Assembly: GCA_021776615.1 (NCBI GenBank)
Contig: JAJFFO010000002.1
Location: forward strand, 62,001 to 126,000
DNA: 64,000 nucleotides
From: Robiginitomaculum sp.
GTDB taxonomy: Bacteria > Pseudomonadota > Alphaproteobacteria > Caulobacterales > Maricaulaceae
Reading direction: 5' to 3'
Under the pieces are notes generated by a model. The model had not been told where the DNA came from. It was given only the letters and a program-made list of their open reading frames with translations, and searched no databases. How positions within the stretch are numbered: position 1 is the stretch's first letter; each line of letters begins with the position of its first letter. The translations under genes and the position numbers were made by a program. Positions 25,943-52,874 of the stretch are shown piece by piece.

Positions 25943-27262
25943 ATGCAAAATAAAGCGCCTCTTTCAAAGCGCGGCGCCGCTCCGTTTTCGGCCTTTGAGC
26001 GCTCGATTGCGTGGCGATATTTGCGGGCCAAACGGGCCGAGGGCGGTGCGTCCCTGATTACCACCATCTCATTCATCGGGATCATGCTGGCGGTGGCGGT
26101 GATGATTATTGTGATGTCGGTAATGAGCGGCTATCGCGATAAAATTTTTGACATTTTGATGGGCACGCAGGGCCATATCTATGTCTATACCTCGCAATTG
26201 GAACCAGAGCAGATTGAACCATTGCGGCAACGGCTTGCGGGCGTGCCCGGGGTGGTTTCGGCCCGTTCTATGGTTGCCGGGCAGGCGGCGGCCACGTCTA
26301 ATCAGGGCGGCGATGCCAATCTTGCTATTGTTTTGGGGTTAAAGCCGGACGCCCTGCGCAACACGCCGCTTATTGTCGAAAAACTGCAAGGCGGTAGTCT
26401 TGAGAGTTTCGGCGAAGGCCGCAATGGCGGCAATGAAATTGTCATTGGCGCGGCGATGGCGCGAAATTTTGGTGTTGATGTTGGTGATGATCTGAAATTG
26501 CTGTCGTTTAGCTCCAGCAATATTACGCCCTTTGGCTCGACGCCGCGCTCGAAGTTGTATCGCATTGGCGCCATTTTCGAAATTGGCCATGCCGAGTTTG
26601 ATGGCACCTTTGCCTATATGCCGCTTGAGCAAGCCATGGTGTTTTTTAGCCGCGACAATACACCTGACTATGTTGAGATCCGTGTTGAGGATCCGTTTGA
26701 TACCCTGCCGATGCGGCTGGACCTGGCCGAGGCGGCGGGCGTTTCCATTATGATGGATGACTGGAAAGATAAAAACCGCTCCTATGCCACAGCGCTTAAA
26801 GTCGAGCGGATGATGATGCGGATGATTTTGCTGCTGATCATCTCTATCGCGGCGATGAATATTATTTCCGGCTTGGTCATGCTGGTCAAAAATAAAGGGC
26901 GCGATATTGCTATTTTGCGCACCATGGGGGCGAGCCGATCTTCGGCCATGCGTATTTTCATTATGGCGGGGGCGGCAATTGGTGGTTTCGGCACTCTGGC
27001 CGGGCTGGTGTTGGGCATTCTCTTTGTCATCTTTATCGACCCCATTCAGGATGGCATTCAGTCGGTATTTGCGATTTTTAATCCCGGCGAGCGGCTTTTC
27101 GATGCGCAAGTGTATGATTTGGCACGCTTGCCCGCCAAATTGGAATGGGGCGAGATCGCGATCATTGCCGGCTTTGGCTTTGCAATGTCGATATTGGTAA
27201 CTTTGCCGCCGTCATGGCGGGCCTCGCGCCTCGATCCGGTGGAGGCATTGCGCTATGAATGA
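25943..27262 (+). CDS. lolC: Lipoprotein-releasing ABC transporter permease
   Basis: This is the permease of the LolCDE system, which pulls outer-membrane lipoproteins from the inner membrane and hands them to LolA. The 439-residue protein has the typical plan: a first span near residues 40-65 (ISFIGIMLAVAVMIIVMSVMSG), a periplasmic domain of about 230 residues, and three C-terminal spans (about 290-420) with the RTMGAS coupling motif. Alphaproteobacteria usually have a single LolC/E-type permease that acts as a homodimer. The ATG directly follows the proS stop and the gene overlaps lolD by eight bases. Confidence 0.93.
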   Translation: MQNKAPLSKRGAAPFSAFERSIAWRYLRAKRAEGGASLITTISFIGIMLAVAVMIIVMSVMSGYRDKIFDILMGTQGHIYVYTSQLEPEQIEPLRQRLAGVPGVVSARSMVAGQAAATSNQGGDANLAIVLGLKPDALRNTPLIVEKLQGGSLESFGEGRNGGNEIVIGAAMARNFGVDVGDDLKLLSFSSSNITPFGSTPRSKLYRIGAIFEIGHAEFDGTFAYMPLEQAMVFFSRDNTPDYVEIRVEDPFDTLPMRLDLAEAAGVSIMMDDWKDKNRSYATALKVERMMMRMILLLIISIAAMNIISGLVMLVKNKGRDIAILRTMGASRSSAMRIFIMAGAAIGGFGTLAGLVLGILFVIFIDPIQDGIQSVFAIFNPGERLFDAQVYDLARLPAKLEWGEIAIIAGFGFAMSILVTLPPSWRASRLDPVEALRYE

Positions 27263-27959
27263 GTATGGCGGGACAGACAGTTCGGCCATCGTGCGCCTTG
27301 AAAACATATCGCGCCGCTATCCGTCGGGCCGTGGATTTTTGGAAGTATTGTCCGGTGTTGATCTGGAAGTTAATGCCGGTGAATTTGTCGGCCTTTTAGG
27401 GCCATCCGGGTCGGGTAAATCCACCTTGCTGCACGCCGCCGGATTGTTGGAAAAACCCGATGGCGGGAAGGTCTGGATTGAGGGCAAGGAATGCCTGTCT
27501 TTGCCCGATGCCGAGCGTACGGCGGTGCGCCGCAATGGCATTGGCTTTGTATATCAGTTTCACCATTTATTGCCTGAATTTACGGCGCTCGATAATGTCG
27601 CAATGCCGCTGCGTATAGCCGGGGAGGGGCTTGCCTTTGCCCGGCAAGAGGCCGAGCGGTTATTGGTGATTATGGGGCTGGGCAACCGGCTGACGCATCA
27701 ACCTTCGCAGCTTTCCGGCGGTGAGCAGCAGCGGGTGGCCATTGCCCGGGCGCTGGTTAATCGACCACGTATATTGCTGGCAGATGAGCCAACCGGCAAT
27801 CTGGACCCCAATACGTCCGCGGCGGTCTTTCAAAGCTTGTTCGATTTAGTGCGTATTGAGCGTGTCGCCGCTTTGGTGGCCACCCACAATCATGATTTGC
27901 GATCCTATATGGACCGGGTATTAGTCATGCAAGATGGCAAGGTGGCCATTAGCGACTAG
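27255..27959 (+). CDS. lolD: Lipoprotein-releasing system ATP-binding protein
   Basis: LolD is the ATPase that drives lipoprotein release by LolC/E. The 234-residue protein has the Walker [10 protein letters not shown], the Q-loop [15 protein letters not shown], the ABC signature [15 protein letters not shown], Walker [13 protein letters not shown], and the H-loop ATHNHD. It overlaps the permease gene by eight bases, so they are co-translated. The 398 bases that follow hold the SOS-type promoter region and the 30-residue membrane protein gene described below. Confidence 0.95.
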
Positions 27960-28064: not shown

Positions 28065-28079
28065 GTTCATAGAACGTTT
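28065..28079. promoter_or_regulatory. Near-consensus LexA box (upstream)
   Basis: The sequence is GTTC-ATAGAAC-GTTT, one base off the alphaproteobacterial LexA box GTTC-N7-GTTC. It lies about 35 bases upstream of the promoter-like TTGACG at 28101. As the least exact of the three sites here, it may be a weak accessory site or chance. Confidence 0.35.
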
Positions 28080-28100
28080 TGTTTTTTTAAAATTATTGCC

Positions 28101-28128
28101 TTGACGAAAAGAACAAAACATGAATAAT
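28101..28128 (+). promoter_or_regulatory. Sigma-70-like promoter with LexA half-site in spacer
   Basis: TTGACG (28101-28106) and AATAAT (28123-28128) are 16 bases apart, a reasonable promoter. A degenerate LexA box GAAC-AAAACAT-GAAT (28111-28125) fills the spacer and overlaps the -10. Transcription would begin near 28135, inside or next to the perfect box at 28136-28150, so LexA bound at either site should block RNA polymerase. The next gene downstream is the 30-residue ORF at 28170, and dnaE may be read from the same transcript. Confidence 0.65.
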
Positions 28129-28135
28129 GAAATTG

Positions 28136-28150
28136 GAACATAACATGAAC
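28136..28150. promoter_or_regulatory. Perfect LexA operator (GAAC-N7-GAAC)
   Basis: GAAC-ATAACAT-GAAC is an exact match to the alphaproteobacterial SOS box, read on the opposite strand as GTTC-N7-GTTC. It lies ten bases after the degenerate box and twenty bases before the ATG of the small ORF, over the expected transcription start. LexA is coded in this same window (52126-52809). Confidence 0.85.
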
Positions 28151-28169
28151 ATAAAAATGGAGAAATTCT

Positions 28170-28262
28170 ATGCGTGATATTTTAAGAGAAGCAGCTGCCC
28201 TTTCCGTGTTGGCTGGCCTTACGATTTTGATTGGTGCATGGTCTATGGTTCTCGGCGGCTAA
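28170..28262 (+). CDS. sidA: SOS-regulated 30-residue single-span membrane protein (candidate SidA-type division inhibitor)
   Basis: An ATG with a well-placed GGAG (28159-28162, seven-base spacing) opens a 30-codon frame ending TAA. The peptide starts MRDILREAAAL, is then hydrophobic (about residues 9-28) and ends SMVLGG: one membrane span with a short charged cytoplasmic start. It follows a promoter with one perfect and one degenerate LexA box. In Caulobacter crescentus the SOS protein SidA is a 29-residue inner-membrane peptide that stops division by acting on FtsW/FtsN. Size, topology, control and position beside dnaE fit that protein. I cannot align the sequences here, so the symbol is an inference. 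Confidence 0.7.
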   Translation: MRDILREAAALSVLAGLTILIGAWSMVLGG

Positions 28263-28357: not shown

Positions 28358-31300
28358 ATGAGTGTTGTGGATCTACCCTTTGTGCATTTGCGGTGCCGTT
28401 CGGCCTATTCTCTTCTGGAGGGAGCGGTCGAGGTTGAAGGTTTGCGGGATTTGGCGCTGGGCAACCATATGCCGGCCCTTGCGTTGACCGACATTAATAA
28501 TCTCTTTGGTGCATTAGAATTTTCCGAGACGCTGTCGAAGGCCGGGGTGCAGCCATTGATCGGCGTGACTCTGGCATTGGGCGGCGGCGATGACAGCGGC
28601 GTGCCTGCGGGCGAAATTGCTGGCAATGTCGCTTTGCTTGCCGCCAGCGAAGAAGGCTATCTCAATTTGATGGCGTTAAGTTCCAAAGCGTTTTTGGAGG
28701 TTGATGCTACCGAGCTTGCGCATGTGATGTGGGACGATGTTCGTGCCCATGCCAACGGCTTGATCGCTCTGACCGGCGGGTTTGACGGGGTGGTAAATCG
28801 ACTTTTGCACAAGGACCATGCCGAATTGGCGCAAAAGCGACTTGATGATATGGCCGCCACCTTTGGCGATAATCTATTTGTTGAGATACAGCGACACGGA
28901 CGACCGGAAGAACGGTTGAGCGAGCCGGTATTGCTCGATTGGGCAGATCGTCATGGCGTCGCCATGGTTGCCAGTAATGAGCCTTATTTCGGTAAGGCAA
29001 GCATGTACTCGTCGCATGATGCGTTGATGTGCATCTCGCAAAGCACCTATCTGTCTGTGCCTGATCGGGTACGGGTAACCCCGGAACATTATTTTAAATC
29101 TGGCACGCAAATGGCCAAACAGTTTAGCGATTTTCCTGAACTGATTAGCAATACTGCTCTGGTGGCCATGCGGTGTCATTTCAGGCCACGGACGCATGAC
29201 CCGATTTTGCCGAACTTTGCCGGCGATGGCGGTAATGACGAAGAGGCGGAACTTGCCAACCAGGCACGCTTGGGGCTGAAGGCACGCCTTAAAGCAATTG
29301 AACTTTCCGCGCCTGAGGAAGAATACTGGGCGCGTCTGGAGCGTGAATTATCTATCATTAATCAGATGGGCTTCCCGGGATATTTCCTGATTGTGGCCGA
29401 CTTTATCAAATGGGCTAATCAGCAAGGTATTCCCGTTGGGCCGGGCCGTGGTTCCGGTGCTGGCTCTGTGGTGGCGTGGGCATTGACCATTACCGGTTTG
29501 GATCCTTTGCGGTTTGGACTGTTGTTTGAGCGGTTTTTGAACCCGGAGCGGGTTTCCATGCCTGACTTCGATATCGATTTTTGCCAGGAACGGCGCGGCG
29601 AAGTGATCGAATATGTGCGTGAAAAATATGGCAAGGACCGGGTCGCACAGATCATTACTTTTGGAACTTTGCAGGCGCGCGCCGTATTGCGAGATGTTGG
29701 CCGGGTTATGCAATTGCCACTCGGGCTGGTGGATCGCCTGGCCAAAATGGTACCGAGCAATCCTGCCAATCCGGTTACATTGGCAGAGGCGATTGCGTCA
29801 GAGCGTGACTTAAAAAACGCGCGTGATGAAGATGAGGATGTGGCGCAATTACTGCGTACCGCGCTCGAACTTGAAGGGTTGTATCGCAACGCCTCAACCC
29901 ACGCCGCCGGTGTGGTCATTGGTGACCGCCCTCTGGTGCAATTAACACCGCTTTATCGGGACCCGCGTTCGGATATTCCAGCCACCCAATTCAATATGAA
30001 ATGGGCAGAAAAGGGTGGCTTGGTTAAGTTTGACTTCTTGGGGCTTAAAACCCTGACTGTGATCAAGCATGCCGCAGGTTATTTGGCCAAACGCGGCATT
30101 GAAGTTGATATTGACCATTTGCCGCTGGATGATGAAGAGACCTATTCCATGCTGTCGCAAGCGGAGACGGTTGGCATTTTCCAACTGGAAAGCCCGGGCA
30201 TGCGCGATGTATTGCGCAAAGCACGGCCTGATTGCTTTGAAGACATTATCGCTATTGTTGCCCTGTATCGCCCGGGACCGATGGAGAATATTCCCAAATA
30301 TGCCGCGTGTAAGCACGGGCATGAAGCGCCCTTGTTTTTGCATGATTTGATTACCCACATAACCGAGGAAACCTATGGGGTTATCATTTATCAAGAACAG
30401 GTCATGCAAATCGCGCAAGTGCTTGCCGGGTATTCGCTTGGGGATGCTGATTTGCTCCGCCGTGCCATGGGCAAGAAAATTAAGGCTGAAATGGAGGCGC
30501 AAAGAGAGCGCTTTGTAGCCGGGGCGGTAAACAACAATGTTGATGAGGCGCAGGCAGAGCGCATTTTTGATCTTGTCGATAAGTTTGCCGGATATGGTTT
30601 TAATAAATCGCACTCCGCCGCCTATGCGTTGGTGTCCTATCAAACCGCTTGGCTAAAGGCGCATTATCCGGTTGATCTGTTGGCCGCGCTGATGAGTTTG
30701 GATATTGCCAATACTGATAAGCTGGCAATCTTTGTGCAAGATGCGCGGCGGCAGGGCATTGAGGTGGTTGGGCCGGACATTAATGCGAGCCAAGCTGACT
30801 TTGACGTCGGGGACGGCAAAGTTATCTATGCGTTGGGGGCAATTCGTAATGTTGGCCGCAGTGCCATGGAGCTTGTGGTTGAAGAGCGGGAAAAAAATGG
30901 CCCGTTTATCGACCTTTATGATTTTGCTCGGCGGGTTGATCCACGGGCCGTTAATAAGCGCGCTTTTGAAAATTTGGCCCGGGCCGGCGCCTTTGATTGC
31001 CTTGAGCCAAACCGACATAAGGTTTTTAAAGCCGCTAGCGAGCTTTTGGCGCAAGCGGCCCATGCCGCGCGCGACCGCGAATCCGCACAAGTTGGGTTGT
31101 TCGGCGATGAGGCGGCGGATGTTGGCCGTGCTGCTTTGCCGGAATTTGAGGCGTGGGACGATGCGGCGAGATTGCGTGAGGAATTGTCCGCCATCGGGTT
31201 TTATTTCTCCGGCCATCCGATTGATGCTTTCAAACAGGTTTTAAAATCCGCTGGTGTTACTTCGATTGCCAGTCTGGCCCTTAAGGCCGGTCGACGTGAT

Positions 31301-31810
31301 TCGACATTTCGGCTGGCGGTCATCGTGCGCTTGCGGCGTTTGCGGACAAATCAGCGCGGTGGACGGTTCGCTTTTCTGACCCTTTCCGATGCCAGCGGCG
31401 AGTGTGAAATCATGGCTACTGCCGAGGTGATGGGCGATGCGGGTGATTTGATTAACCCGGGCACGCCCATTTTGGCGACAATCCGTTTTGATAAGGGGCC
31501 GGGGCAGGTGGAAGGGCGGTTTCGACTGGCCAGCGTACAGGCACTGGAATCTTTCGGGGCCTCGAAAACCGGTGATTTGCGTGTGGTCATGGACGATTGC
31601 GGCCAAGCGGATGCGGTGAAAGCCTGCCTTGAGGCGTTGAGGTCACGGGATGACGTTCCATTGCGGCGTTTGACGTTGGCGTTTGTGGCTGACAATGGCT
31701 GCGAAGTTGAGATAGAGGCGGATGGCAATTGGCCAGCTGATGCGGCCGCGCGGCGCGCCGTGAAATCCCTGGCGGGGGTTCGGGATGCCCAAGAGGTCGC
31801 CGCCAGATGA
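28358..31810 (+). CDS. dnaE: DNA polymerase III subunit alpha
   Basis: DnaE is the replicative polymerase subunit. The 1150-residue protein has an N-terminal PHP domain (FVHLRCRSAYSLLEGA, residues 7-23, onward), the polymerase palm with the catalytic acidic motif PDFDIDFCQERRGEVIEYV near 405-425, fingers with GFNKSHSAAYALVSYQTAWLKAHYP near 745-770, a helix-hairpin-helix region near 860-900 and a C-terminal OB-fold (about 985-1060). Length matches replicative DnaE1, not the shorter or ImuB-linked DnaE2. The ATG at 28358 fits the usual N-terminus. The 95 bases between the SOS ORF and dnaE show no separate promoter I trust. Confidence 0.97.
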   Translation: MSVVDLPFVHLRCRSAYSLLEGAVEVEGLRDLALGNHMPALALTDINNLFGALEFSETLSKAGVQPLIGVTLALGGGDDSGVPAGEIAGNVALLAASEEGYLNLMALSSKAFLEVDATELAHVMWDDVRAHANGLIALTGGFDGVVNRLLHKDHAELAQKRLDDMAATFGDNLFVEIQRHGRPEERLSEPVLLDWADRHGVAMVASNEPYFGKASMYSSHDALMCISQSTYLSVPDRVRVTPEHYFKSGTQMAKQFSDFPELISNTALVAMRCHFRPRTHDPILPNFAGDGGNDEEAELANQARLGLKARLKAIELSAPEEEYWARLERELSIINQMGFPGYFLIVADFIKWANQQGIPVGPGRGSGAGSVVAWALTITGLDPLRFGLLFERFLNPERVSMPDFDIDFCQERRGEVIEYVREKYGKDRVAQIITFGTLQARAVLRDVGRVMQLPLGLVDRLAKMVPSNPANPVTLAEAIASERDLKNARDEDEDVAQLLRTALELEGLYRNASTHAAGVVIGDRPLVQLTPLYRDPRSDIPATQFNMKWAEKGGLVKFDFLGLKTLTVIKHAAGYLAKRGIEVDIDHLPLDDEETYSMLSQAETVGIFQLESPGMRDVLRKARPDCFEDIIAIVALYRPGPMENIPKYAACKHGHEAPLFLHDLITHITEETYGVIIYQEQVMQIAQVLAGYSLGDADLLRRAMGKKIKAEMEAQRERFVAGAVNNNVDEAQAERIFDLVDKFAGYGFNKSHSAAYALVSYQTAWLKAHYPVDLLAALMSLDIANTDKLAIFVQDARRQGIEVVGPDINASQADFDVGDGKVIYALGAIRNVGRSAMELVVEEREKNGPFIDLYDFARRVDPRAVNKRAFENLARAGAFDCLEPNRHKVFKAASELLAQAAHAARDRESAQVGLFGDEAADVGRAALPEFEAWDDAARLREELSAIGFYFSGHPIDAFKQVLKSAGVTSIASLALKAGRRDSTFRLAVIVRLRRLRTNQRGGRFAFLTLSDASGECEIMATAEVMGDAGDLINPGTPILATIRFDKGPGQVEGRFRLASVQALESFGASKTGDLRVVMDDCGQADAVKACLEALRSRDDVPLRRLTLAFVADNGCEVEIEADGNWPADAAARRAVKSLAGVRDAQEVAAR

Positions 31811-32003: not shown

Positions 32004-33176
32004 ATGGCTCTACCTGAAGTGAGCATGCGTCAGCTATTGGAAGCGGGCGTGCATTTTGGACACCAAAAACACCGCTGGAATCCACGTATGGAACCCTATA
32101 TTTTTGGGGTTCGTTCGAATATCCACATTTTGGACCTATCGCAAACCGTACCACTTTTGCACCAAGCTTTGGTGAAAGTGCGCGAAGTTGCGGCCAAAGG
32201 TGGGCGTATTTTGTTTGTTGGCACTAAACGCCAAGCCAGTGATGTTGTCGCGGCATCGGCCAGCCGTTGCGCACAATATTACATCAACCACCGTTGGCTC
32301 GGTGGCACGTTGACCAATTGGGTGACCATTTCGCATTCTATAAAGCGCCTTCGCGACCTTGAAGGCATGTTGGCGGAAGATGCGCAAACCGGTTTGACCA
32401 AAAAAGAGCTGATGAAGCTTACCCGCGAACAGGACAAGCTCGAACGGTCTTTGGGCGGCATTAAGGATATGGGCAGCGTACCTGATCTGATGTTTGTTAT
32501 TGATACCACCAAGGAAGTCATTGCGCTTCAAGAAGCACGCAAGCTGCACATTCCCGTCGTGGCGGTTATCGATACCAATTCGAACCCCGAAGACGCCGAT
32601 TTCCCAATTCCGGGCAATGATGATGCGACCCGCGCGATTGCGCTTTATTGCGATCTTATTGCTGATGCGGTTCTTGATGGCATGGCCGACGCACAGGCAT
32701 CGCTTGGCACCGATTTGGGCGCCTCCGAAAACCCTGTCGAGCTTGCCATGAAGACGCAAGCGCCAAAGGCCAAAGCCGCACCGAAAGCGGCCGCTGAGCC
32801 TAAAGCAAAGGCCAAAACTGAACCGAAGGCAGAAGAAAAAGCGGCGCCAAAGGCCGCCGCTGAAGAGAAAGCAGAGCCTAAAGCTGAGGCTAAACCTAAA
32901 GCAGAGCCTAAGGCAGAAGCAAAAGCGGCGCCAAAGGCCAAAGCTGAACCTAAAGCGAAGGCCGCCCCTAAAGCTGCGGCCAAACCTAAGGCAAAAGCCG
33001 AACCTAAAGAGAAAGTTGCTCCAAAAGCTAAAGCCAAGGCCGAACCTAAAGCCAAGGCCGAACCTAAAGTTGCAGTGAAAGCTGAGCCCAAGGCAAAAGC
33101 CGAGCCCAAAGCAAAAGCTGCCCCTAAGGCGGCTGCTAAGCCAAAAGCTAAGGCTGAAAGTAAAGATAAAAGCTAA
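32004..33176 (+). CDS. rpsB: 30S ribosomal protein S2 with long repetitive C-terminal tail
   Basis: S2 is a small-subunit ribosomal protein needed for S1 binding. Residues 1-250 are the normal S2 fold: [22 protein letters not shown] at the start, [28 protein letters not shown] and [19 protein letters not shown] near 190-215. Residues about 253-390 are a tail of Lys, Ala, Pro and Glu in irregular KAEPKAKA-type repeats, so the protein is 390 residues against about 240-260 in most bacteria. The start at 32004 follows AAGGA and gives the standard N-terminus; the longer open frame lacks support. tsf follows after 62 bases. Confidence 0.96.
32760..33173 (+). repeat. Lys/Ala/Pro/Glu-coding repeat tract in rpsB
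   Basis: About 414 bases built from short imperfect units such as GCCAAAGGCC and AAAGCTGAACCTAAAG, coding for [11 protein letters not shown]-like sequence. The opposite strand is also open over the region because of this bias, which creates a large antisense shadow frame. Units vary, so the tract is likely to change length by slippage or recombination. Confidence 0.85.
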
Positions 33177-52125: not shown

Positions 52126-52809
52126 TTAATGGTAACGGCGTACCAGCCCAACCAATGTGCCCTGAACTTTAACCCGGTCGGGGCCGAATACTCGTGTTTC
52201 ATATTCAGGATTGGCAGCTTCCAACGCAATGCTGCCATCTTGTTTGCGCAAGCGCTTTAGCGTCGCTTCCTGGTCATCAACCAGCGCCACCACGATCTGC
52301 CCGGTATTGGCAGATTGCGCCCGGCGAATAATCACCGTATCGCCATCCAATATCCCGGCATTTATCATTGAATCGCCTTGCACTGAGAGTGCGAAGTGCT
52401 CGCCGCGCCCGATCATATCCGCCGGGGCGGCAATGCGTGCAGTTTCGTGCTGGATCGCCTCAATCGGCGTGCCTGCGGCAATGCGGCCCAAAAGCGGCAC
52501 GTCAATACTATTGGCAGGTTCGGGCAGTTCGCCCGCCGCCTCAGCCGTCATAACATTGGGTTTAAAGTTTGAATTAACAGGGTTTTGTTGCATATCTTCG
52601 GGCAGTTTCACCACTTCCAGCGCGCGGGCGCGATGGGCAAGGCGGCGGATAAACCCGCGTTCTTCCAAGGCGGTAATCAAGCGGTGAATGCCTGATTTTG
52701 AGGCTAGGCCCAAGGCGTCTTTCATTTCATCGAACGATGGCGAAACGCCGCTCTGCGACAAGCGCTGATTAATAAAAATAAGAAGGTCGTGTTGTTTCGT
52801 TGTTAGCAT
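52126..52809 (-). CDS. lexA: LexA repressor
   Basis: LexA represses DNA-damage genes and cuts itself when RecA is activated. The 227-residue protein has an N-terminal winged helix (residues 1-70; [23 protein letters not shown]), the cleavage bond Ala112-Gly113 in [10 protein letters not shown], and the Ser147/Lys185 dyad in QGDSM and ATLKR. An extended linker is typical of this class. Its own promoter carries LexA boxes, so it is self-regulated. It lies downstream of trpC on the same strand. Confidence 0.97.
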
Positions 52810-52819
52810 AGCATCACCA

Positions 52820-52874
52820 GAACAAAAACCGAATCTGTTGACGATGTTCTACATGTGTTCTTATTCGTGGTCAA
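52820..52874 (-). promoter_or_regulatory. lexA: lexA promoter with two LexA boxes
   Basis: On the minus strand TTGACC (52874-52869) and TAGAAC (52851-52846) are 17 bases apart. The perfect box GTTC-TACATGT-GTTC (plus strand 52846-52860) covers the -10 element. A second degenerate box, GAAC-AAAAACC-GAAT on the plus strand (52820-52834), lies between it and the lexA ATG, with an 11-base gap. This is the same perfect-plus-GAAT pattern seen at the small SOS gene near 28.1 kb. The trpC-lexA gap is otherwise empty. Confidence 0.8.

Follow-up and report, generated by a model that had tools for sequence, protein, structure and literature searches.

A probable sidA-type SOS peptide gene upstream of dnaE in Robiginitomaculum sp. 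and its alphaproteobacterial relatives

We found that a short reading frame at positions 28170–28262 of a 64,000-nucleotide stretch of Robiginitomaculum sp. DNA (hereafter the window, part of a MAG that is 71% complete) is a real gene, encoding a peptide of 30 residues. The best explanation, to which we assign as a whole a probability of about 0.86, is that it is a sidA gene, repressed by LexA and induced in the SOS response, whose product would block division by orthology with SidA of Caulobacter, with probable read-through into dnaE. Induction by damage, the topology of the peptide in the membrane, its target in the divisome, the arrest of division and read-through into dnaE are inferred as follows. 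In undamaged cells, LexA sitting on one box between the −35 and −10 elements and on a second at about +1 would block the promoter. DNA damage would activate RecA, LexA would cleave itself and the promoter would fire, giving rise to the 30-residue inner-membrane peptide. As an orthologue of Caulobacter SidA, it would enter the late divisome (FtsW/FtsI/FtsN) and septal wall synthesis would be halted until repair is done, while transcription would probably continue into dnaE.

The peptide gene and its LexA boxes

The features on which the analysis relies are the following.

27255–27959, plus strand: lolD-like ABC ATPase gene, the upstream neighbour and a synteny marker (best match TIGR02211, 251 bits, below the curated cutoff of 308)
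28101–28129, plus strand: predicted sigma-70-type promoter, with −35 TTGACG at 28101–28106 and −10-like AATAAT/ATAATG at 28123–28129
28111–28125, plus strand: predicted LexA box 1, GAACAAAACATGAAT, one mismatch, in the −35/−10 spacer, its last base overlapping the −10
28136–28150, plus strand: predicted LexA box 2, GAACATAACATGAAC, perfect, at about +1
28159–28163, plus strand: Shine–Dalgarno sequence GGAGA, 6 nt before the ATG, read directly
28170–28262 (stop included), plus strand: probable sidA-type gene for a 30-residue, predicted single-span membrane peptide, MRDILREAAALSVLAGLTILIGAWSMVLGG, ATG start and TAA stop
28358–31810, plus strand: dnaE, DNA polymerase III alpha (NF004226, 1400 bits against a cutoff of 1002)
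52126–52809, minus strand: lexA, the presumed repressor (TIGR00498, 177 bits against a cutoff of 111)

The first-pass annotation had described an unlisted 30-residue frame here with a good ribosome site, one membrane span and a promoter carrying two LexA boxes, and this description held throughout. A GGAG-like site was also found in most relatives, and MRDILREAAALSVLAGLTILIGAWSMVLGG has one hydrophobic span with a Kyte–Doolittle mean of 2.03 over its best 17 residues, pointing to a membrane peptide with a single predicted span. No family in Pfam or NCBIfam matched the window peptide and none in Pfam matched its Caulobacter counterpart, so annotation pipelines likely miss such genes.

Relatives were examined by searching for the peptide first in 60 of them and then, as a profile, across the whole family. 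Within the Robiginitomaculum-like genus it was present in 17 of 18 genomes and was exactly 30 residues long in every one of the 17, each of which also carried a perfect GAAC-N7-GAAC box starting 29–51 nt before the ATG. Alignment of the 17 promoters revealed that the TTGAC of the −35 element and the GAAC half-sites of box 2 were invariant, and box 1 was found in 16. Conservation was needed as the decider because the box match is not significant by window statistics alone, 32 one-mismatch matches being observed against 35 expected. Loss of the peptide or the boxes in relatives had been named beforehand as grounds for giving up the annotation, and the 17 genomes retain the peptide with at least the perfect box. 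A candidate element at 28065–28079, a one-mismatch match on the other strand, had no support in relatives and was rejected as chance. The codons of the peptide gave a dN/dS of 0.24, with differences by codon position of 0.32/0.10/0.51, and this low ratio together with the strong third-position excess indicated a translated protein under purifying selection.

The same kind of box recurs in the genome before known SOS genes. A pattern search placed GAAC-N7-GAAC boxes 19–145 nt before lexA (a perfect box at 52846–52860, in the gene's own promoter), recA (69 nt), the divergent uvrA/ssb genes (26 and 145 nt), dinB (25 nt) and radA (19 nt), and the peptide box GAACATAACATGAAC shares its form with those of uvrA/ssb (GAACATAATATGAAC) and radA (GAACATATCATGAAC). 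Caulobacter LexA boxes are GTTC-N7-GTTC (PMC12700426), which is GAAC-N7-GAAC read on the other strand, and the GAACAAAACxxGAAT form of box 1 was seen again in Caulobacteraceae. Its promoter makes it very probable that the peptide gene is induced by DNA damage. A further one-mismatch match lies close to lexA at 52820–52834 on the plus strand. The lexA gene is about 24 kb from its proposed target within the window; in C. crescentus, lexA (CC1902) and dnaE (CC1926) are likewise close by locus number.

Relation to Caulobacter SidA

SidA of Caulobacter crescentus was reportedly described by Modell and colleagues in 2011, and to our knowledge it has been studied in that one species. It is a 29-residue inner-membrane inhibitor of division that acts in trans on FtsW (PMC4211646). 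The sidA gene is CCNA_02004 (PMC10769358), CCNA_02005 encodes an inosine-uridine nucleoside hydrolase (PMC3667746), and dnaE is CC1926 (PMC1839093), presumably CCNA_02003 by its NA1000 tag. Genus g28, in family f3 of the same order, is Caulobacter judging by the RsaA S-layer protein, whose first 249 residues in seven g28 genomes were 75–84% identical to those of C. crescentus; the closest Caulobacter genome found had 84% identity in this N-terminus. All ten g28 genomes tested encode a 29-residue peptide under LexA boxes immediately upstream of dnaE, with the consensus MIR[IV]ARES[LF]ALVSVxxFVWMMC[TS]VAxLVA, and nine of them have a divergent inosine-uridine nucleoside hydrolase gene (PF01156) on its other side. 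This position between the hydrolase gene and dnaE, combined with the published locus tags, makes it highly probable that the g28 peptide is SidA itself. An in-frame upstream ATG overlapping a box would give 40 residues in most g28 genomes; the correction of the C. crescentus sidA start by ribosome profiling (PMC4117421) is compatible with the shorter 29-residue form.

The direct alignment with the Caulobacter peptide that the first-pass annotation had proposed came back empty, BLASTP returning no match between the two, and the link to SidA was therefore drawn from profiles and synteny. When 19 peptides of the window's family were compared with 23 Caulobacteraceae peptides using hhalign, the score was 30.9, which was reached by none of 300 column shuffles (150 full and 150 segment-wise; maximum 21.0). 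An HMM trained on 41 peptides, all from the family of the window, was then run against the 889 ATG reading frames of 20–60 residues at 40 Caulobacteraceae loci, and the 45 best matches consisted only of peptides at the sidA position, some of them read from an earlier or later start. In two further families of the order (f4 and f5) and in the rest of the class, the best matches were again LexA-box peptides upstream of dnaE. Comparison of the Caulobacteraceae and f5 profiles was not significant, so that f5 is tied to the window's family and not directly to Caulobacteraceae. Homology between the window peptide and the one at the sidA locus of Caulobacter is supported by where the gene lies, how its LexA promoter is built, the length of the product and the similarity of the profiles.

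The two peptides are alike in having about 30 residues, a single predicted span, apparent LexA control and a place directly upstream of dnaE, and several LexA boxes, one of the GAACAAAAxxxGAAT form, occur at both loci. They differ in length (30 residues against 29) and are about 22% identical where the profiles align; lolD lies upstream in the window and the nucleoside hydrolase in Caulobacter. Its C-terminal part (W24, VLGG) reads W-x-x-VLGG where Caulobacter has a different tail, so contacts with the target may differ. By analogy with SidA, the window peptide would inhibit division through FtsW/FtsN. Dozens of diverged natural variants are now at hand for mapping SidA–FtsW contacts.

Another model is provided by TisB and DinQ of Escherichia coli, which act on the membrane and its energetics and are unlinked to dnaE. 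Like the window peptide they are single-span micropeptides, and they are induced in the SOS response (DinQ: PMC3567139). A toxin of this type, lowering the proton motive force and promoting dormancy instead of acting on the divisome, would account for the size class, the one hydrophobic span and the LexA boxes, but profile and synteny fit the sidA locus, and a conserved acidic residue near positions 6–7 together with W24 suggests specific contacts, leaving this reading improbable. Other damage-induced inhibitors resemble the peptide in kind. DidA of Caulobacter (CCNA_03212) is also small, spans the membrane once and inhibits division after DNA damage, which induces it, but it has 71 residues, is SOS-independent and acts on FtsN (PMC4211646); we claim no relation in sequence or locus. 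YneA, ChiZ, SosA and DivS of Gram-positive bacteria are SOS- or damage-induced membrane inhibitors of division, and YneA acts on FtsW (PMC13396833), but it is larger, with a LysM domain, and no homology is indicated.

Position next to dnaE

The stop codon of the peptide gene is separated from the dnaE start by 95 nt, and no terminator-like site was found in this gap, making a transcript shared by the two genes plausible. The lolD-like gene is adjacent in relatives too. At 32004–33176 on the plus strand lies a ribosomal-protein-S2-like reading frame (rpsB, named from sequence) with a C-terminal lysine-alanine-proline-glutamate repeat tail of well over 100 residues.

LexA boxes were also found before dnaE where the peptide is absent. 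Five f4 loci (L133, L134, L137, L138 and L139) have a GAACAAAACxxGAAT-type box 42–62 nt before the dnaE start (GAACAAAACATGTAC in L133), and a perfect box stands at −48 of dnaE in genome G019 (L387). These sites suggest that dnaE can be under a LexA-box promoter. The sidA-type locus raises the question of whether the replicative polymerase is itself SOS-induced via read-through from the sidA promoter. There is no mention of dnaE in the main text of the study on the SOS response of Caulobacter (PMC12700426).

Given its small size, its strand and its distance of 95 nt from dnaE, the frame might be read as a leader peptide or upstream reading frame that regulates dnaE translation or attenuation, its product being irrelevant. 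We regard this as very unlikely, in view of the purifying selection on the amino-acid sequence and of two genomes in which the peptide, together with its two boxes, is not next to dnaE (L014 in G013, contig C73; L016 in G008, contig C8). In both, the peptide faces an aspartate-kinase/diaminopimelate-decarboxylase-like gene (named from sequence), and the region upstream of dnaE in G013 (L399) contains neither box nor peptide, indicating that the peptide is an SOS unit in its own right, not a leader of dnaE. Furthermore, it is homologous to the peptide at the Caulobacter sidA locus, and SidA inhibits division in trans (PMC4211646).

Distribution of the arrangement

To follow the sidA-type arrangement further, regions upstream of dnaE were scanned in the family, in four other families of the order and at 124 loci of the class outside the order; from a sample, the dnaE loci with the better matches were used, and they do not form a census. 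A locus was counted when a relaxed LexA box was followed by an ATG membrane reading frame of 24–50 residues. The arrangement was found at 13 of 14 loci of the genus and at 55 of 57 loci of the family's other genera. Counts in the other families were 38/40 for Caulobacteraceae, 27/30 for f5, 12/30 for f4 and 0/30 for f2, and outside the order 23 of the 124 loci carried it. Nine control motifs matched in base composition gave 0–2 loci per group (0–1 in the genus and family groups). Among loci lacking a box, such a reading frame occurred at 0–1 per group within the order and at 6 of the 99 from the class outside it. A chance reading frame beside chance LexA-like half-sites, for which the commonness of one-mismatch boxes in the window might speak, is refuted by the retention of frame, length, box and promoter in the 17 genus genomes and at the 55 further family loci against controls of 0–1, and its probability is negligible.

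In a genome-wide search, a profile made from the first members of the family picked up none of the order's other families, which were reached by scanning upstream of dnaE. The peptides of these distant families have a charged [KR][DE] pair near residues 5–8 with A-L or A-G after it, and many have a tryptophan within the span or beyond it, as in MITDFVKDFLALSSVVGVLWAVTIWSPVLGNALA (L216) and MSEWVKDTAALFVLGAVMWSGFALTAAAQAAG (L202). Their E-values in the family-only HMM search extended from 6e-6 to above 1, so that they are likely homologous, with weak support case by case, and any one of them may have arisen independently at the same locus.

A literature search, with most subscription journals outside its reach, turned up nothing on orthologues of SidA beyond Caulobacter or on an SOS peptide next to dnaE. 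The SidA kind of inhibitor is already known; the locus rule and the wide distribution are new here. A SidA-type division brake looks far more widespread than the single studied example suggests, and the combination of a LexA box, a small membrane reading frame and dnaE allows the division inhibitor of the SOS response to be sought in many further alphaproteobacteria. More broadly, we give even odds to the idea that SidA is an old, fast-diverging alphaproteobacterial SOS checkpoint peptide in one transcription unit with dnaE, which would couple division arrest to replicase supply, and that lineages losing the peptide sometimes keep the LexA box on dnaE. In f2, without the peptide, 3 of the 30 loci (L076, L079 and L092) have a perfect GTTC-N7-GTTC in the short gap between lolD and dnaE.
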